NCBI GenBank assembly: GCA_947498765.1
Contig: CANMLG010000016.1
Coordinates: 124,001 to 188,000 of the forward strand
Length of the DNA stretch: 64,000 bases
Direction of reading: 5' to 3'
DNA from: an uncultured Aquimarina sp.
Lineage (GTDB): Bacteria; Bacteroidota; Bacteroidia; Flavobacteriales; Flavobacteriaceae
Part shown: one piece after another, positions 34,274-42,934 of the stretch
Position numbering within the stretch: the stretch's first letter is position 1
Layout of the letters: the number at the start of each line of letters is the position of its first letter
Translations under genes and position numbers: made by a program
Notes under the pieces: generated by a model
Seen by the model: only the letters and a program-made list of their open reading frames with translations
Database searches by the model: none
Told to the model about the DNA's origin: nothing

Positions 34274-34298
34274 TTTTGAGAGAGTGTAAAATTAAAGA

Positions 34299-34375
34299 AG
34301 AGCCGTATGATGGGAGACTATCACGTACGGTTCTGTGAGAGGTTTAGGGGTGAGAATCCCCTTTACCTACTCGAC
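34299..34375 (+). ncRNA. Truncated group II intron: domains V-VI only
   Basis: GAGCCGTATGAT..ATCACGTACGGTTC + DVI ending CCTACTCGAC; two differences from 3' end of the intron at 36546-37239. Confidence 0.85.
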
Positions 34376-34376
34376 T

Positions 34377-35000
34377 TTATATCCGTTTAATTTCTTTTTG
34401 AATTTTTCTTTTTGAGTTCTCAAATATTTCTCCTCCAAATTCTTCATTGTCTAGTGAAATTGTGGTAATATCTTTTATTCCCATTATTCCGAACACAAAT
34501 TTAAGGTAAGTTGTTTGGAAGTTCATATGCTGATTTTTTTCATTTTCTCCATAACCTGTGTCTCCACGACTTGATAGAATGAACATTTTTTTATTTTTTA
34601 AAAGACCTACATAATCTCCATCTGGCTTTCCTGAACGAAATTCCCACGTTTCATTTATGCGCATAAGTTGGTCAATATATGATTTTAAACCACTAGGAAT
34701 TGACCAATTGTACATTGGTGTTGCGAGAACATATATATTATGCTCTTTAAATTCTTTAATTAGTATGTCACTAAATTCAACGCCAGATTGATTTTCTTTA
34801 GTCCTGTCTTTGGGGTTAACAAACGCACTTGAAATCCATTTTTCATTTATGGCAGGAATTTCTTCTAGTCCAACTTCTCGAAAGGAAAATGTGTCTTTTG
34901 GATTTTTATTTCTCCAGTTTTTTAGAAATAGTTTTGTTAATTCTCGACTGTGCGATTTTTCATTTCGTACACTTGAATTAATGATAAGTACTTTGTTCAT
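34377..35000 (-). CDS. NAD(P)H:FMN oxidoreductase / azoreductase-like flavodoxin-fold protein
   Basis: NSSVRNEKSHSRELTKLF, ATPMYNWSIPSGLKSYIDQLMR, SSRGDTGYG. Confidence 0.85.
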   Translation of the reverse strand: MNKVLIINSSVRNEKSHSRELTKLFLKNWRNKNPKDTFSFREVGLEEIPAINEKWISSAFVNPKDRTKENQSGVEFSDILIKEFKEHNIYVLATPMYNWSIPSGLKSYIDQLMRINETWEFRSGKPDGDYVGLLKNKKMFILSSRGDTGYGENEKNQHMNFQTTYLKFVFGIMGIKDITTISLDNEEFGGEIFENSKRKIQKEIKRI

Positions 35001-35063
35001 TTTTTTAATTTTGAATGATGATACAAAGTTCGTTATCGTAATATAGATAAATATTGACCTAGT

Positions 35064-35645
35064 TTAAGATGACTTATATTTTTTACAAATTCTACTTAAA
35101 AACTCAGCAGTAATACCTAAATATGAGGCAATTAAGTATTGTGGTACTTTATCAGTTATTTTTGGATAATTTTCTATAAAATTCGCATATCGTTGTTCTG
35201 CATCTAGTACATTATCTTCTATTATTCTTTTTTGTAAACTTCCTAAATACTTTTCAAGTATGATTCTGAAAAAGCGTTCAAGCTTGGGGATTTGTTTTAA
35301 CATTTCTTGAAAAGAATCGTAACGAATTTGTAATAATTCAGTTTGCTCAATTGCTTGAATGTTATAAATTGAAGGTTTTTGTTTCTGAAAGCTATCAATA
35401 TCTGTTGCCCACCAATTTTCAATTGCAAAATAGAGTATTTCTTCTTTTCCTGTTTTAGAATTTATGTAAAAAGCTTTTAAAGTTCCACTAACCACAAAAT
35501 TGTCAGTTCTGCAAATTTCTCCATTTCTTAACAAGTATTCTCCTTTTTTAAGCGTTTTTTCTGTCCAAAAATTCTCAATTAGATTTTGCTCTTCAGAATT
35601 CAATTCAATGTGATCTGAAATCGACTTTATTAGAGGTTTTTTCAT
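35064..35645 (-). CDS. Crp/Fnr-family transcriptional regulator (ORF extends to 35660)
   Basis: KKGEYLLRNGEICRTDNFVVSGTLKAFY..., C-terminal ..VPQYLIASYLGITAEFLSRICKKY. Confidence 0.88.
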   Translation of the reverse strand: MKKPLIKSISDHIELNSEEQNLIENFWTEKTLKKGEYLLRNGEICRTDNFVVSGTLKAFYINSKTGKEEILYFAIENWWATDIDSFQKQKPSIYNIQAIEQTELLQIRYDSFQEMLKQIPKLERFFRIILEKYLGSLQKRIIEDNVLDAEQRYANFIENYPKITDKVPQYLIASYLGITAEFLSRICKKYKSS

Positions 35646-35650
35646 AATTA

Positions 35651-35774
35651 TTGCCAACATTGCAACACTCCAAAATCATCATTATCATGAAATAAAAAGA
35701 CAAAAAATATCGTATTTTTATAACCTAGGATTTAACGAAAAGGCTTTACATAGGATATAGTGTTGTGTGTTCGT
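35651..35774 (-). repeat. attC-like palindrome 1 (degenerate)
   Basis: TTGCCAACATTGCAACACT...ATAGTGTTGTGTGTTCG. Confidence 0.5.
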
Positions 35775-35791
35775 TTATTTTTGTGTTTCTA

Positions 35792-36331
35792 TTACATTTT
35801 TGCACTAATGTAATATATCATTTCATTTTCAACATCAAGAAAAATCAGTTGAGCTGAGGAAGGGGTAACACCATTAAAGTATGTGCTCCAAGGATATAAA
35901 TAATAATTAGATTGTTCCATTTTTTTAGGAAACCACGGTATTTCATATGTCCAACCGTCTATAAAAGAAACTGATTTGTCTAAAATATCAGGTAGTTTAT
36001 CACACCTATACCACTTATAATTTTTACGATTAGTTATGTCATCAATACTTACATTATTTAGTTTTATAGCATAAGCATCTAAATGGTCTCCAGTGAATGA
36101 TCTTGCCGATTCATAACTATTTATTACTTTATTAATTCTATCATCACCAATACCACACCAATTTAAAACAAATCCAACATCAGATTTTGTAGCTTTATTA
36201 ACTTTATTCTTATTGAAAAGGGTAAAACTCAATGATGAATAGATAAAAATTATAATTAGACTTAATATCGTAAAACCTCCGATAATTGCTAGTCCATTAT
36301 AAGCCCATTTTAGCAATTTATTTTTATTCAC
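35792..36331 (-). CDS. Hypothetical single-TM protein (cassette gene)
   Basis: 179 aa ORF bounded by GTTGTGTGTTCG / ATGACACACAAC cores. Confidence 0.65.
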   Translation of the reverse strand: MNKNKLLKWAYNGLAIIGGFTILSLIIIFIYSSLSFTLFNKNKVNKATKSDVGFVLNWCGIGDDRINKVINSYESARSFTGDHLDAYAIKLNNVSIDDITNRKNYKWYRCDKLPDILDKSVSFIDGWTYEIPWFPKKMEQSNYYLYPWSTYFNGVTPSSAQLIFLDVENEMIYYISAKM

Positions 36332-36353
36332 AATATTTATCTATTTGATTTTA

Positions 36354-36545
36354 ATGACACACAACGTTTAATGTAAATGTCAGTGCGAGTAGAAGTGCGA
36401 TGCACTTCGCCCGTAGCACGAGCAAATACTTTTGTTTAAGTGCAAATTTAATGTTTAAGAGCTTAATAAAAAAGTATTTGCGATTCGGTAGACAATAACC
36501 ACCTTCGCGCGGCACCAATGCCCAAGCATTGCATTTACATATTGT
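36354..36545 (-). repeat. attC-like palindrome 2, interrupted by group II intron at its right core (continues at 37240)
   Basis: ACACACAAC..ATGTAAATG...GCAAATACTTTTG...AAAAGTATTTGC...GCATTTACATATTGT|intron|TACAAAAT. Confidence 0.75.
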
Positions 36546-37239
36546 GTGTGCCTTGAATGGTAAATATAGTTCATTTAAAGAATGTCCCAAAGGGTGCGAG
36601 TCCCTGATACGAGGAAGTAACGCTCCTAAGTAAAGCAAGTGGCAAGGTTGATTGGGGTGACCCAATGACTGAAGTAAGCCAGACTGCGTGGTCGGTTCTG
36701 AGGGATACTTTTTTATGAGGTTTTATGAAATAAAACCAAATGTCTAGTAGACATTTGAATAAATAAAGCGGTGATGTGGCTGGTAGATATGAGGCTGTAA
36801 GGTTGGATAAGTAGGCACATAACTGCAACGTTCCAAACGTTTTTTTTAAACGATAACCGAAGCAGTAGATTAAGTATCATTAGCGAACCGCCATAAAGGT
36901 AGCATGACTTTTATCTAGGCATTTTTCCGGAACGCAGGAAGCCTGATTAAGGTGTTAAAGGGAACCATCAAGTAGGCAGTACCTACAAGACTATTACCAA
37001 TATTTAATCAGGTGGCGGATAAACTCGTAGTAATGTTGAATCACCTGTAATGGGTGAGGAGTGAAGGGGTTTAATTATGCTGTTTATGATTTAATTACAA
37101 CTTTTATTAGTAAGAGGATGATTTTTAAAGAAAAGACAAAGCCATTAATTGGCTGCATAATAAGAGCCGTATGATGAGAGACTATCACGTACGGTTCTGT
37201 GAGAGGTTTAGGGGTGAGATTCCCCTTTACCTACTCGAC
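36546..37239 (+). ncRNA. ORF-less group II intron (self-splicing ribozyme), ~694 nt
   Basis: 5' GTGTGCC (GUGYG); conserved DI segments AAAGGGTGCGAGTCCC and GAAGTAAC; 34 nt domain V GAGCCGTATGATGAGAGACTATCACGTACGGTTC; DVI ending CTACTCGAC. No RT ORF. Confidence 0.88.
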
Positions 37240-37248
37240 TACAAAATG

Positions 37249-37956
37249 TTAATATTTTATACTCTCTTTTTTCATCGTTAAAACTATGTATTCTGCGATA
37301 TTAGGGTTATCAATAAAAATATTTATTTTATTTTGCACTCCAAATACACTGAACGAATTACCAGGTATATTGCTAGTATTACCAAATTGAGTAGTAGATG
37401 AAAATGAAGAATTACTATCCCAGCTAGTATTTGTATTTACAGGATCCCAATGTTCAAAATCAGCAGCAAATGATGCTCTTATATAGTAGATTTCTCCATT
37501 TGAAGGTTTAATTACTATTTTGTTTTTTTTGTCCAAGCTCCAGTTGTAAGAGTGAATTTCACCAGCTTTTACTTTGTGAACGAAATAACTTTTAGTTTTC
37601 ACATTAATAAACTTTTCTCCATTATAATTGACAACACAAGCCAGAGCTGACCCAGTATAGACGTATGGTCTATAAAAGTATATATGAGCGTATCCTGTTT
37701 CTGGTTTTTCTATTGCCATTTTTGTTGGATTATCTATAACATCTATATCAGTAATTTTTACATCAGTAAATTTGAATATATTTTTCTTTTTAGGGGATTC
37801 TTTTCCTTCCAATATGTACTCAATTCTTTTTCCTTTTAGACCGATCACCTTACAATTTAAAGTATCCAACTCCTTTGTAACAAGGTAATCTTTGTAAGAC
37901 TGAGAATATGTTGAAAAAACTGTAGTAAGAAATAGAATGAAGCCTATATATTTCAT
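37249..37956 (-). CDS. Hypothetical secreted protein with DUF2846-like segment (cassette gene)
   Basis: Signal peptide; YAHIYFYRPYVYTGSALACVVNYNGEKF. Confidence 0.65.
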   Translation of the reverse strand: MKYIGFILFLTTVFSTYSQSYKDYLVTKELDTLNCKVIGLKGKRIEYILEGKESPKKKNIFKFTDVKITDIDVIDNPTKMAIEKPETGYAHIYFYRPYVYTGSALACVVNYNGEKFINVKTKSYFVHKVKAGEIHSYNWSLDKKNKIVIKPSNGEIYYIRASFAADFEHWDPVNTNTSWDSNSSFSSTTQFGNTSNIPGNSFSVFGVQNKINIFIDNPNIAEYIVLTMKKESIKY

Positions 37957-37975
37957 AAATAATATTTTGTAACGT

Positions 37976-39599
37976 CAGTTTGTCTAAAAACCTCCGTTTG
38001 TAGATTTATTAAGCTAATATAAGCTGATTTAAGGAGGATTTATATTTAAAGGTATTAGTTTTTGTGATTAAATACAGTGTCCTTAAAAAGTCTCTTTTAA
38101 TGGCAGTAAAGTCAATTATCTTGGAAGAATGATGAATCCTACTTTTGAAGTAGGATTTTAGCATGTTTTTGTCCACAATATTAAAGATTCTTTTCAAATT
38201 ATAGCAAGTAAATATAAATCCAATTTCTGCACTGGCTCTATAAATATATTTTTTTGTTGAGATATATGAAAATCCCCATTGTCGCTTTATAGTGCCATAA
38301 GGATGTTCTACAATTTGTTGTCTTTTTCGGTATAGTTCTTTGTTGTTTTCAATCCGCTGTTTATTTTCCTCAATGAGATGTTGGTACTCGCTTCGTTGTA
38401 TTCCTTTTCCATATTTAGCTTTGGTGCACTTGGTTTTTACGGGGCAGTCTTTACATTTTTTAGTGGTATATCTTTTAAATTTATAGGTTTTAGCAGAATG
38501 CCATTTTCCAGTTGTAGTTAGTGTTTCCCCTTGTGGACATATATAGGTATCATTGTTTGGATCATAATTGAAGTTAGCGACATTGTATTTAGGATCAGGA
38601 GCTTGATTGGGTACATTTGGTATAGCTACCATTACATCGATTCCTAATTGATCAGCGATTCCAAATTCACTACCAGTATGATATCCTTTGTCATAAAGGG
38701 CAGTGAAGTTAGTGTGATTTAAGATTTTCGAAGCGCGCTCTAACATGTGTCCCATGGCTTTTCCATCATTTGTATTAGTTACTTTAAAATCAATAGGGAT
38801 GTTATGTTTATCATCTACTGTAGTTTGTATATTATAGGCTATTTCTGTAATATTATTGCGTGTAATCATGTGGCGACTATCGGGATCGCTAGTTGATATT
38901 TGTGGTTCACCACTATCTTTGAGTTGTTTTTCTATCTGCTTGTATTGTAATTTGCGTTGTTGTTGCTGTTCTACCTCTTGCCTGATCCGTTGTGAATGCT
39001 CATCATTACTATCTAGCTCGTTTTCATATTGCTGCAATTTCTTGTCAATATAGTCTAGATGTCTGTCGATTTTCTTTTGGTTATAATTATTCTTCTTACT
39101 GTTTTGAGCTCTTAACTTGGTACTATCGCCAGCAATTAAGTTGCCACCAATAAGCTCGAAGTGTTTTGCTATCGATACAGTTGCCTTGAATACCTTTCGT
39201 ATAGCTTTGGAGTTATCTCTTCTAAAATTTGAAATGGTATTGTGATCTGGTTGTAATTCTTTTAAAAGCCACATCACTTCAATATTACGTTTGCAATTTT
39301 TTTCTAAATCTCGAGAGGATCGAGTTTTATTCATGTATCCATAAATATATAATTTCAATAAATCACTAGGGTGATAGGCAGGTCTTCCATTTTCTTTAAA
39401 GCTAGTTTTAAAGCCATAATCTAATAAATCAATACTATCTACAAAGAGATCAATAAGGCGAACTTCATTGTCATAATCAATGACTGATTCAAGAGATAAA
39501 GGAAAAAGTAAGGCTTGATTTCTGTCGGTTCCTACTATAAATTTCATATAATTAAAATACAAAATTTAATACAGATATAAAAGGTTTTTAGACAGTCTG
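37976..39599. mobile_element. IS1182-family insertion sequence, 1624 bp, 4 bp TSD (ACGT)
   Basis: Imperfect TIRs CAGTTTGTCTAAAAACCT / CAGACTGTCTAAAAACCT; ACGT at 37972-37975 and 39600-39603; contains transposase. Confidence 0.9.
38009..39547 (-). CDS. IS1182-family transposase (ORF track start 39562)
   Basis: GRPAYHPSDLLKLYIYGYMNKTRSSRDLEKNCKRN, DHNTISNFRR, ADDE-type core, C-terminal VEHPYGTIKRQWG. Confidence 0.92.
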   Translation of the reverse strand: MKFIVGTDRNQALLFPLSLESVIDYDNEVRLIDLFVDSIDLLDYGFKTSFKENGRPAYHPSDLLKLYIYGYMNKTRSSRDLEKNCKRNIEVMWLLKELQPDHNTISNFRRDNSKAIRKVFKATVSIAKHFELIGGNLIAGDSTKLRAQNSKKNNYNQKKIDRHLDYIDKKLQQYENELDSNDEHSQRIRQEVEQQQQRKLQYKQIEKQLKDSGEPQISTSDPDSRHMITRNNITEIAYNIQTTVDDKHNIPIDFKVTNTNDGKAMGHMLERASKILNHTNFTALYDKGYHTGSEFGIADQLGIDVMVAIPNVPNQAPDPKYNVANFNYDPNNDTYICPQGETLTTTGKWHSAKTYKFKRYTTKKCKDCPVKTKCTKAKYGKGIQRSEYQHLIEENKQRIENNKELYRKRQQIVEHPYGTIKRQWGFSYISTKKYIYRASAEIGFIFTCYNLKRIFNIVDKNMLKSYFKSRIHHSSKIIDFTAIKRDFLRTLYLITKTNTFKYKSSLNQLILA

Positions 39600-39793
39600 A
39601 CGTTCAGTATAAGAAACGTAGGACAGATGATAAGCACTTTCGTTTCGATTTATTACTTAGCTAAATATAAATATTTTGCTTTTATCTTTTCTTCTATAAA
39701 CGTCAAATTTTATATTTAGCGGACTTTGTTAATATGCAAAGACCTTTCGATTAAGCACAAACGCCCTATGTTTTTTATACCTTGTTAGCGGTA
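39600..39793 (-). repeat. attC-like palindrome 3 (left core split by the IS)
   Basis: GTATAAGAAACGTAGG...CCCTATGTTTTTTATAC dyad; strongly similar to 40763-40965. Confidence 0.8.
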
Positions 39794-40747
39794 TTATTTA
39801 ACCTTATGAGCCTTATTCATTTTAATAAATCGGGCGGTCATAAGTTGTAGCAAATATTGACCTTCTAATTCTGTTTGGTATTGGGCACATTGATCAATTG
39901 AAAAAGATTGATTTTCATTAATCTTATGATTCATGTGATAGATTGAATATAGCTTTTTTCTTTTGCTAATTAATTTGACTTTCGCTAATCTCTTATTAAG
40001 TAGTATGTCAAGTTCTTCAAACCCGATTGGTGAATGATTGAATCTAAATCCCTTAGTTCCTTCTCCAGCATTTGAAAAAGTGAAATTCAACTTTGATTTA
40101 TCTTCAAAAAGCATAATCAGAGAATCTCCTTTTGCTAATGTTATATCTTCATTTCTTGAATTAAATGAGGCATAGACATACCCGTTATAATTAACTAACG
40201 ATAATCCTAAATATTCATGTGCTAAAGTTGCTTGGTCAAGGTAAAGTTTGAAGTATTCAGATTCTTCCGATGCTACTTTTGTGATTTTTATTGTTTTTGC
40301 ATCTGTAAATTCATCTTCTAGATAGCTAACTTCCGTTTGTTCGAGCTTTGGTCTATTTTGTTCAAGAAGCTTCGAGTTTAACGTATTATCGTCCTCGATT
40401 TTTTGTACAAAAAGAAGTTCATCATTCAAGCCAATTCTTGTTTCTTTCCTCACTAAGAAATTATCTATTTTCCCACCATATGGAAGGTTAACATATAGAA
40501 GTCCACTACCATGAATTTTTGAACCTAAAATGAATAAAGTTTGATTCGCTTTAAAATACTCTCCCTCGTTAACCTTGATTTCCGAAAGTTCAAATTGATC
40601 AGTTTCAGGAATATCTTCACTTAATAGTTTAGAGTAATTATCCTTATTTAAATAAACCAATTCTTGACCTTCTTTTACCTTTAGTTTTTCTACGGGCTTT
40701 TTGAGGGTCTTTTTATTTTTTGATTTGAATAATTGGAAAATCTTCAT
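39794..40747 (-). CDS. Hypothetical protein with biotinyl/lipoyl-like domain (cassette gene)
   Basis: VNEGEYFKANQTLFILGSKIHGSGLLYVNLPYGGKIDNFLVRKETRIGLNDELLFVQ. Confidence 0.65.
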   Translation of the reverse strand: MKIFQLFKSKNKKTLKKPVEKLKVKEGQELVYLNKDNYSKLLSEDIPETDQFELSEIKVNEGEYFKANQTLFILGSKIHGSGLLYVNLPYGGKIDNFLVRKETRIGLNDELLFVQKIEDDNTLNSKLLEQNRPKLEQTEVSYLEDEFTDAKTIKITKVASEESEYFKLYLDQATLAHEYLGLSLVNYNGYVYASFNSRNEDITLAKGDSLIMLFEDKSKLNFTFSNAGEGTKGFRFNHSPIGFEELDILLNKRLAKVKLISKRKKLYSIYHMNHKINENQSFSIDQCAQYQTELEGQYLLQLMTARFIKMNKAHKVK

Positions 40748-40762
40748 TTTGATAGTGTATTA

Positions 40763-40965
40763 CCGCTAACGTCTCGTATAAGAAACGTAGGGCAGGTGAT
40801 AAGCACTATCGTTTCGGTTTGTTACTTAGCTAAATATAAATATTTTGCTTTTATCTTTTCTACTATAAATGCCAAATTTTATATTTAGCGAACTTTATTA
40901 ATAAACACAGACCTTTCGGTTTAACACAAATGCCTTATGTTTTTTATACCCTGTTGTGTGTAGTG
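40763..40965 (-). repeat. attC-like palindrome 4
   Basis: CGCTAACGTCTCGTATAAGAAACGTAGGGCA...TGCCTTATGTTTTTTATACCCTGTTGTGTGTAGTG. Confidence 0.8.
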
Positions 40966-40969
40966 TTTT

Positions 40970-41311
40970 TTAGCATTTTTCTATTATTGATTTCCCTTTT
41001 GATTTGTCTCCAGAAGTCCATTCCCACGTTTCGTAAAGTCGAATTTTTCCATTAGTCAAGATTTCTGGCTTGGAAAAACAGATTCCAGTCATTAATTGTC
41101 CTTTCTCATTTACTTGGTGATAACGCATTTCAATATTACCATTTTCGTCTACCAATCCGATTAAATGTCCTTTTTGAATTTTTCCTCCGAAATATTCTGA
41201 AGTCAAAATTTCCCCATTTTGTTTATATTCAAAAATTGTTTCTTCAGTCGTTTCTCCGTTTTGAGTATTTTGTACAGGTCTAAATTTCTTATTGTTGTAA
41301 TTTATTTTCAA
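40970..41311 (-). CDS. Small hypothetical protein (MORN-like/n-acetylglutamate-synthase-labelled family)
   Basis: GKIQKGHLIGLVDENGNIEMRYHQVNEKGQLMTGICFSKPEI. Confidence 0.65.
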   Translation of the reverse strand: MKINYNNKKFRPVQNTQNGETTEETIFEYKQNGEILTSEYFGGKIQKGHLIGLVDENGNIEMRYHQVNEKGQLMTGICFSKPEILTNGKIRLYETWEWTSGDKSKGKSIIEKC

Positions 41312-41361
41312 TGCTATTTTCTTTTTAAGAAGTTATACAAAATCAAATATTTTATAGGTTT

Positions 41362-41745
41362 TTATTTTTCAAGTGGTTGAGTGTATTTCACAATGTCAAT
41401 TCCAATTCCATTTGGGTCTTCTATGGCGAAATGTCTTTCACCCCAAGGTTCGTCCCTAATATCTACTTTAATATCAATATCTTTATTCTTTAAATCAGCA
41501 TAAAATTTGTCAACATCATCAACCTCAATAGTTAAATACATTCCTTGTCCTTTAAATTCAGGATGAAAGAAAGGTTGTTGAGTATGGTGGTTTGGTAATA
41601 AAAAACTTAATGAATCTTTATTATTGGGCGTATTTAATAACAAATAAAAGTCGGTTTCAAATTTAATTGTAAAGTTTAAATGTTTAGTATAGAAAGATTT
41701 TGTCTCTTTCAGCTTTTTAGTCAAAATTCCAGCATTTAATCTCAT
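41362..41745 (-). CDS. VOC/glyoxalase-family protein
   Basis: TKSFYTKHLNFTIKFETDFYLLL...WGERHFAIEDPNGIGIDIVKY. Confidence 0.85.
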   Translation of the reverse strand: MRLNAGILTKKLKETKSFYTKHLNFTIKFETDFYLLLNTPNNKDSLSFLLPNHHTQQPFFHPEFKGQGMYLTIEVDDVDKFYADLKNKDIDIKVDIRDEPWGERHFAIEDPNGIGIDIVKYTQPLEK

Positions 41746-41774
41746 ATTAGATGTTTTTTATTTGCGTTTTTGCA

Positions 41775-41973
41775 CATTACACACAACGCTCAGGCTATGA
41801 TTAGTGCGGCGCGGAAATTCAGGGAATTTCAAGCCAGCACAAGCAAAAGCTTTGAGCTGTTTTTTAGTTTGTTAGGGTAAAAATAGGGAAAAAGCTTTTG
41901 CGACAATGCAAATCAGCCAACATTTCGGCTGGCACTTGCTCCCGCATTAATTATAGGTATTGTTGTAACACGT
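41775..41973 (-). repeat. attC-like palindrome 5
   Basis: CATTACACACAACGCTCAGGCTATGATTAGTGCGG...CCGCATTAATTATAGGTATTGTTGTAACACG; inner GCAAAAGCTTT/AAAGCTTTTGC. Confidence 0.8.
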
Positions 41974-41979
41974 TTTTTG

Positions 41980-42519
41980 CTAGTCCAGAAATTCTAAATC
42001 CAAGTAATGATTATCAGTATTCAAATTATCAACATATAAGTATGTAAACTTTTTAATTGCTAAGTGCATTTTTAACTTAGTTAACTCCATATTTATGTCA
42101 ACTCGGTATTTTATTTTCTCTTTATTAATGTTTACATCTAATAGAATTACATTGTGATTAACATCAACATAATCAATACTTTGTTTATAGCCACTTCCAA
42201 CAATAACTTCTTGTTGATAATTATTGCTTTGGATTTCTATTTCGTCTAGGTCAATTTTAACTTTATTACCCTCTTTTTTTAATTTTTCAATTCTTAAAGA
42301 ATCTTCATTCTCTATTTGCTTAACATCAAGTTTAAGTTTAATGAAATATATTATTGCTGGTAAACACATTAAACTACCAATTATAACAAACCAAATATTT
42401 GGAGTGCCAAATCGGATATATTTTGTTTCAAATCCAATCCCATTTGAAAGAATTAGTAGCCCTAATATTGTTATTCCAGTGAATATCCAGCTACCTATAT
42501 TTTTTATTTTATTTATCAT
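41980..42519 (-). CDS. Hypothetical two-TM membrane protein (cassette gene)
   Basis: 179 aa ORF bounded by GTTGTAACACG / TGTGTTACAAC cores. Confidence 0.6.
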   Translation of the reverse strand: MINKIKNIGSWIFTGITILGLLILSNGIGFETKYIRFGTPNIWFVIIGSLMCLPAIIYFIKLKLDVKQIENEDSLRIEKLKKEGNKVKIDLDEIEIQSNNYQQEVIVGSGYKQSIDYVDVNHNVILLDVNINKEKIKYRVDINMELTKLKMHLAIKKFTYLYVDNLNTDNHYLDLEFLD

Positions 42520-42740
42520 TTTAATGTGTTACAACAATTGTATATGTGTACCTAGTTACACATATATCTTTTATATATACAAAACAAAGCTAAAGTATTT
42601 TTTTACAGTAACAAGATTTTGATATATTAATTAGTTTGTAGATAGTTAATTACGAAATTATGTAAGTAATTGTAAACATTTGTTGTCGAATAAAGCTTAA
42701 GAATGTTATTCACAAAAAGAATAAGGATTCTATATATAAT

Positions 42741-42773
42741 TGAGCTCTATTGAGCTCTATTGAGTTCTATTGA
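42741..42773 (+). repeat. Tandem repeat of TGAGCTCTAT (~3.3 copies)
   Basis: tgagctctat tgagctctat tgagttctat tga. Confidence 0.95.
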
Positions 42774-42782
42774 AAACTAGTA

Positions 42783-42819
42783 AAACCGCCCAGTACGTAA
42801 GGCGTACGTTGGGCGGTTT
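42783..42819. terminator. Strong GC hairpin AAACCGCCCA..TGGGCGGTTT
   Basis: 10 bp outer stem plus GTACG/CGTAC inner stem, A/T flanks; between array and katG. Confidence 0.75.
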
Positions 42820-42934
42820 AAAAAGGGGACAACAAATCTTGGAATTACCCTTATTTTAATTTTCAGCTCGATGCTGAAATATTTAGTGGCATCATTAAAT
42901 GAATTGATGTTCCTAAGGCTTTTTTTAAGTAAAT

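Follow-up and report, generated by a model that had tools for sequence, protein, structure and literature searches.

An apparent integron-like gene-cassette array in Aquimarina and a candidate recombinase outside the IntI family

We analysed a 64-kb stretch of DNA (the window; contig C16:124001-188000) from the 3.84-Mb genome of an uncultured Aquimarina sp., whose nearest named relatives are Aquimarina agarilytica and A. agarivorans. The minus strand of the window carries, from 42535 down to about 34300, six gene cassettes or cassette remnants and one distal gene. This region is very probably the cassette array of an integron-like system of the Bacteroidota, which has lost its integrase gene at this locus while near-identical full-length copies are kept elsewhere in the genome. 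Judging from sequence comparisons, the array in all likelihood works as an integron does and yet is not an IntI integron: the principle is shared, and the enzyme, the layout of the attI site and the R box differ. A preliminary description of the window had already read the region as integron-derived. That reading is now supported by the pairing of each cassette's own ends, breakpoints at GTT, a locus that is empty or differently filled in relatives, the folding of the bottom strand, and a recombinase with an attI site elsewhere in the genome.

Organization of the cassette array

The array contains at least five cassettes, all in the same direction and joined by palindromes of about 110-188 nucleotides (nt). 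Each cassette has its own complementary ends in the pattern GTT-N7 ... N7'-AAC; the box at its start is called R' and the matching box near its end R''. The end pairs quoted in the preliminary description were all present where it had placed them. The long palindromes that it saw between the minus-strand genes are also real, but its intervals included flanking sequence, and the conserved elements extend from AAC to GTT.

All features of the array proper are on the minus strand. Cassette 1 (41788..42535) opens with R' GTTGTAACACATT (42523-42535), contains a 179-amino-acid open reading frame (ORF) without Pfam match (41980-42519), and ends in R'' CGTGTTACAAC (41962-41974) and attC-like site E (41785..41964, AAC to GTT), which has a 93.7% identical relative in genome G001. 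Cassette 2 (40771..41787) carries R' GTTGTGTGTAATG (41787), two ORFs (a glyoxalase at 41362-41745 and a second at 40970-41311) and R'' CACTACACACAAC (40953-40965), followed by site D (40768..40955), 188 nt from AAC to GTT. Cassette 3 (39600..40770) has R' GTTAGCGGTAATA (40770), an ORF of 317 amino acids without Pfam match (39794-40747) and R'' TAATACCGCTAAC (39784-39796); attC-like site C (39600-39786), again AAC to GTT, belongs to it. Cassette 4 (37240..37975; DUF2846 ORF at 37249-37956) was missed in the preliminary description because an insertion sequence (IS) lies in its R' (GTTACAAAATATT, 37961-37973) and a group II intron in its R''. When both are removed, its ends read GTTACAAAAT and ATTTTGTAAC. 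Site B (36363..36547) has 92% identical relatives in G005 and G051. Cassette 5 (35659..36365) consists of R' GTTGTGTGTCATT (36365), an ORF without Pfam match (35792-36331), R'' ACGAACACACAAC (35762) and the short site A (35656..35764), about 109 nt from AAC to GTT; a spacing of about 110-120 nt is the commonest class in other arrays. Site A opens Cassette 6 (35064..35658), which is degraded, with R' GTTGGCAATAATT, a Crp/Fnr-like ORF (cNMP_binding) and no clear R''. The distal end is occupied by a Flavodoxin_2-family ORF (34377..35000), probably an old cassette, and the conserved left flank of the array begins at about 34277 in G052 and 34272 in G005.

The window was also scanned for GTT-N7 ... 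N7'-AAC pairs 250-2200 nt apart, using no site model. Ten end pairs were found, and the sole run of three consecutive pairs (2 links) corresponded to Cassettes 1-3. The control, shuffled sequence or sequence upstream of integrases, gave 1 link per 365 kb.

Each cassette carries its own complementary ends

When site D was used as a DNA query, matches were found in the window's own genome and in 21 of 21 other genomes of the genus, so the window's palindromes are members of a genus-wide family. The matches ended repeatedly at AAC and GTT. Across 15 genomes of other families in the order, site D had no DNA match. Searching the fetched loci with profiles yielded 306 full sites, 241 of them distinct; wherever a locus had at least two sites, 62 loci in total, they all pointed the same way. 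The loci partly overlap, so these and the following counts are not all independent.

End pairing was measured in 117 cassettes of less than 1.5 kb. The six bases that follow GTT agreed with the cassette's own far end at 611 of 702 positions, compared with 246 ± 14 expected after the ends were re-dealt (z about 26). The two ends of one site matched no better than random (2.04 of 6 bases, n=298). The central claim of the preliminary description, that the two ends of the same cassette pair with each other, is thus confirmed. The median cassette measured 738 nt. Of 95 cassettes, 86 had their longest ORF pointing from R' towards R'', 2 had it reversed and 7 had no ORF. The 178 cassette ORFs fell into 171 families. 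The R box had the consensus GTTRNNNNNHAT and about 10 paired nt; GTTRRRY fitted only 18 of 238 R' boxes, as loosely as had been noted before.

Sites were concentrated on one side of a recombinase gene described below. Around 80 recombinase loci, 85 sites were located downstream (326 kb) and 1 upstream (728 kb). Linked end pairs, counted without a site model, numbered 116 downstream, 1 upstream and 1 in shuffled sequence (per 365 kb).

The bottom strand is favoured in folding

The sites of 96 cassettes were assembled as in the excised circle and both strands were folded. The bottom strand, which the preliminary description expected to be the folded one, folded better in 87 of 96 (p 1e-15). Mean fold energies were -33.0 kcal/mol for the bottom strand, -30.0 for the top strand and -16.2 for random segments. 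The outer stem contained 3.4 G.T pairs in the bottom strand versus 0.33 in the top strand, with 92 sites leaning to the bottom and 1 to the top. Since G.T wobbles occur almost only in the bottom strand, the placement of the mismatches allows good pairing in this strand alone, and this speaks for selection acting on the folding of the bottom strand. Unpaired bases were more often on the R'/L' arm (80 vs 7), whereas textbook integrons have their extrahelical bases on the L''/R'' arm.

Cassettes with identical sequence occur in different contexts

Genome G019 contains a 1338-bp block in copies that are 100% identical. The sequences that precede the two copies are unrelated, and each copy spans from one GTT to the next; a further shared block in this genome is 99.9% identical and has the same GTT edges. 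Of the shared cassettes, 21 pairs were compared: the left end was near GTT in 14, the right end in 14, and both ends in 12. The Cassette 1 region of the window (41761-42535) recurs in a distant species (G051:C71) with 99.2% identity over 775 bp, behind a different attC, and is cut there exactly at GTT. The best katG match between the window genome and G051 is 72%. The locus of the window is empty in G052, where the two flanks lie 281 bp apart with no array, and holds other cassettes in G005 and G007. G007 has another first cassette, and homology to the katG flank stops at GTT. Cassettes therefore appear, from these shared blocks and their edges, to move as units between contexts and species.

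A tyrosine recombinase lies 5' of the arrays

The window genome encodes six tyrosine recombinases, of which two are near-identical full-length proteins of 380 and 382 amino acids on contigs C56 and C24 (96% identical). The absence of an integrase noted in the preliminary description is therefore true of the window locus but not of the genome. On C56 the recombinase gene is followed, 44 nt past its stop codon, by five chained cassettes, and members of the same family are located 5' of arrays, in the same orientation, across Aquimarina and in other genera. R240, K265, H329, R332, H355 and Y364, which we take to be the catalytic residues, are conserved in 21 aligned sequences (H329 nearly so).

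The preliminary description had looked to a recombinase with the IntI patch. This part failed, because no match to the IntI model (TIGR02249) above cut-off was found in 55 genomes of the genus and the IntI-specific insertion was absent. The genome's own recombinase scored 204 bits against a TIGR02249 cut-off of 265. It passed the NCBI family NF040815 ('tyrosine recombinase/integron integrase') with 231 bits (cut-off 220) and missed the equivalog cut-offs of XerD (196 < 329.6) and XerC (191 < 335.2); separate Xer genes are present in the genome, L001 passing XerD and L004 being nearest to XerC. In almost every member of the family, the catalytic R and H motifs are 91-92 residues apart, compared with 133 in IntI1 (taken from a plasmid record, 100% match to the query) and 96 in the genome's XerC. 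The absent insertion is the IntI-defining stretch of about 42 amino acids around ALERKYP. In a tree of 47 proteins, the root of which is not fixed, nine IntIs formed one clade (100/99) that excluded all 34 Bacteroidota proteins. On the basis of these comparisons the recombinase is not an IntI.

The first 80 residues form a separate N-terminal domain in the predicted structure (pLDDT 87), with the layout b-b-a-b-b-a-b. Its Pfam match to HARP was weak (E 0.032, below cut-off), as were the Foldseek matches to HARP 4o66 (prob 0.33) and XPB 2fwr (prob 0.72), both with E > 0.1. A comparison of the domain with PDB sequences gave no meaningful match. A scan of viral contigs for the recombinase returned 61 pattern matches with no relative among them, and phage records contained only partial matches of 30-43% identity.

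The attI-like site and traces of a probably lost integrase gene

An attI-like site, AAAAGATATATGTGTAACTAGGTACACATATACAATT, is located directly 5' of the first cassette of the window (42536..42572, minus strand) and contains the dyad ATATGTGTA/TACACATAT. Over 67 nt, the attI region of the window shares 70% identity (E 8e-5) with a stretch that comprises the 3' end of the integrase gene found elsewhere in the genome and the attI behind it. At the same locus in G005, the first 61 nt of the array share 95% identity with the last codons of the window genome's integrase gene plus attI. Since remnants of the integrase-gene end stand at the start of both arrays, these arrays are most simply read as integron-like units whose integrase gene was lost. 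The architecture of attI recurs in 74 integrase loci, with dyad arms mostly of 8-12 bp, and the first GTT lies 40-47 nt past the integrase stop codon in about half of the loci in which pairs were found. This layout suggests that cassettes enter beside the integrase at attI.

Distribution of the recombinase in Bacteroidota

The recombinase family was detected in 115 of 393 Bacteroidota genomes sampled, representing 78 of 180 genera. Across this sample few relatives were close and full-length, and many were 37-50% identical in the catalytic part only. Chained arrays follow several of the distant relatives too, in other families of the Bacteroidota. A full-length recombinase was present in 50 of 69 Aquimarina genomes.

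Recombinase relatives were also seen on plasmids. The Chryseobacterium plasmid NZ_CP041688 (L243) carries one of 40% identity, followed by small co-oriented genes (Crp/Fnr, RidA and metallophosphoesterase) and a group II intron. At L242:10001-10171 of the Persicobacter plasmid CP012866, which comes from another order (Cytophagales), a stretch resembling the sites shares 85% identity with the Aquimarina palindromes; Persicobacter plasmids also encode recombinases of about 40% identity. Neither the Persicobacter nor the Chryseobacterium plasmids showed linked end pairs.

Proposed mechanism and alternative explanations

We propose that a cassette is a single-gene unit in which, after excision, R' would pair with R'' and so complete a hairpin of about 110-190 nt, the analogue of attC. 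The bottom strand of this hairpin would fold, and the 380-amino-acid Xer-type recombinase, with its HARP-like N-terminal domain and without the IntI insertion, would join it, by recombination at G|TT, to the attI that closely follows the recombinase's own gene. Cassettes would accumulate head to tail and be read in the direction of the integrase; with this common orientation, a single promoter could drive the integrase gene and the cassettes together. The action of this recombinase on the cassettes is suggested by the genomic context. A single-stranded substrate, an exact cut at G|TT, which is the edge of homology, and a role for the N-terminal domain are likewise suggested.

Several observations weigh against this proposal. 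The link between enzyme and substrate consists of position and co-occurrence, and the case for a single-stranded substrate of fold energies and the wobble bias. Fifteen of 61 good-quality Aquimarina genomes have no full-length recombinase, and several genomes without one contain sites (18 in G003, 11 in G005). Either such sites persist without the recombinase, or another enzyme serves them. The likeness of the N-terminal domain to HARP is slight by both the sub-threshold Pfam and the Foldseek scores, and neighbouring copies make the counts not fully independent.

The genomes that have sites and no full-length recombinase are an argument for assigning cassette movement to another enzyme, such as the housekeeping Xer pair, the recombinase of an IS91-like element or a group II intron. 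A recombinase of about 300 amino acids with an IS91-like transposase also lies beside attC in G008 and G005. However, across many genera only the 380-amino-acid family occupies a constant place 5' of arrays and has an attI there, and it is the remnant of its gene end that marks the array start in the window and G005. We therefore consider another enzyme improbable.

A canonical integron, or a cluster of attC sites lacking integrases (CALIN), with ordinary IntI and ordinary attC sites would show the same R''-AAC ... GTT-R' geometry, bottom-strand bias and cassette diversity, and would account for the NF040815 match. Against it stand the scores below the IntI cut-off in all 55 genomes of the genus that were searched, the missing insertion with its short R-to-H distance, the separate clade of the nine IntIs, the rarity of GTTRRRY and the co-orientation of integrase and cassettes, which together make this explanation quite improbable.

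Cassettes might also be shuffled by RecA-type homologous recombination between similar sites, some of which are up to 93% alike, with the recombinase as a mere neighbour. The right ends of the shared cassettes would then be spread over the 188-nt site, but 14 of 21 were within 16 nt of GTT and 3 at most 16 nt from AAC. A 100% identical cassette is preceded, right up to its GTT, by unrelated site sequence, and insertion next to attI leaves no site upstream, so that such shuffling is very improbable. Dispersed palindromic repeats without a role in recombination (REP-like elements or terminators) would explain palindromes 3' of genes, some of which score as terminator-like, but were rejected on the breakpoints at GTT and can practically be dismissed, as the sites are one-directional, chained, concentrated downstream of one recombinase and flanked by cassette-specific complementary ends that form the exact edges of shared blocks.

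Relation to known systems

The proposed system resembles sedentary chromosomal integrons and CALINs, for example the Vibrio superintegron, in its head-to-tail single-gene cassettes with a hairpin 3' of each gene, R' and R'' complementary within the cassette, the GTT edge, the favoured bottom strand, attI beside the integrase, very diverse contents and group II introns in sites. The genomes with sites and no full-length recombinase resemble CALINs. Unlike sedentary chromosomal integrons, the Aquimarina integrase is not IntI, lacks the insertion and is co-oriented with the cassettes; attI lies about 40-47 nt past the integrase stop codon with dyad arms of 8-12 bp, the R box GTTRNNNNNHAT is not GTTRRRY, and the strand bias comes largely from G.T/A.C asymmetry. 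The enzyme shares its catalytic domain and residues with Xer-type recombinases (XerA, XerC/D; NF040815), the best solved relatives being XerA-like (4a8e, 5hxy). It differs from them in an extra N-terminal domain of about 110 amino acids and its association with cassette arrays, and it is separate from the genome's own XerC and XerD. Compared with IntI4/VchIntIA (PDB 2a3v), it scored 152 bits with 27-28% identity in the fold alignment, and nothing in it corresponds to the region of the IntI additional domain. The N-terminal domain shares its layout with SMARCAL1 HARP and the XPB DRD, both among the best Foldseek hits; as the scores are not significant, a relation is only suggested.

The IntI-specific additional domain is required of an integron integrase (PMC9668308, PMC8138268). 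Integrons have been described as almost absent from Bacteroidota; the one complete integron that a survey of complete genomes names for Bacteroidetes proper is from Salinibacter (PMC9024848). No description of the present system was found in open PMC papers (no preprints and few closed journals being covered). If the enzyme works as proposed, the major phylum Bacteroidota owns a platform for cassette exchange, which has gone unseen because integron searches require the IntI insertion. Whether this insertion is needed for folded-DNA recombination in general thereby becomes testable. A more tentative idea, which we entertain without favouring it, is that a Xer-type recombinase of Bacteroidota reached the integron lifestyle independently, single-strand capture having arisen, or surviving, outside IntI; the HARP-like domain, in place of the IntI insertion, would recognise the folded attC, and the system would supply a large cassette pool that standard searches would miss.

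Mobile elements in the array, and other features

The IS in Cassette 4 (37976..39599, minus strand; DUF772/DDE transposase ORF 38009-39562) sits at the G|TT of the R' box and is flanked by a 4-bp target duplication, ACGT (37972-37975 and 39600-39603). The group II intron in the R'' box (36548..37239, plus strand) is complete and ORF-less, with an Rfam RF00029 match of 61.5 bits at 37162-37239; its 5' border at 36548 was placed by the intron sequence shared with G007. An intron that splits an R'' box resembles the known group IIC-attC introns. The remnant of a second group II intron, domains V-VI (34298..34375, plus strand; RF00029, 67 bits), abuts the stop codon of ORF 34377. Both copies run antisense to cassette genes, immediately behind the stop codons of these genes, and copies recur in G007 and G052. 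In two genomes (L072:2600-4300, L081:1500-3100) an end of the IS91-like element, which consists of the recombinase of about 300 amino acids and a transposase, abuts the AAC of an attC-like site; the element may target such sites.

Between katG and attI, at 42742-42820, the window contains repeats of the GAGCTCTATT type in tandem, together with a strong palindrome (CCGCCCAGTACGTAAGGCGTACGTTGGGCGG), which is probably the katG terminator and has counterparts in G005 and G007.

The cassette ORFs covered about 31 Pfam families among 116 proteins, one member each. The cassette pool includes resistance-like and phage-defence-like genes: small multidrug resistance, lincosamide nucleotidyltransferase-like and beta-lactamase folds were present, and PADLOC matches among the cassette proteins included PD-T7-3, GajA-like and AbiLi.

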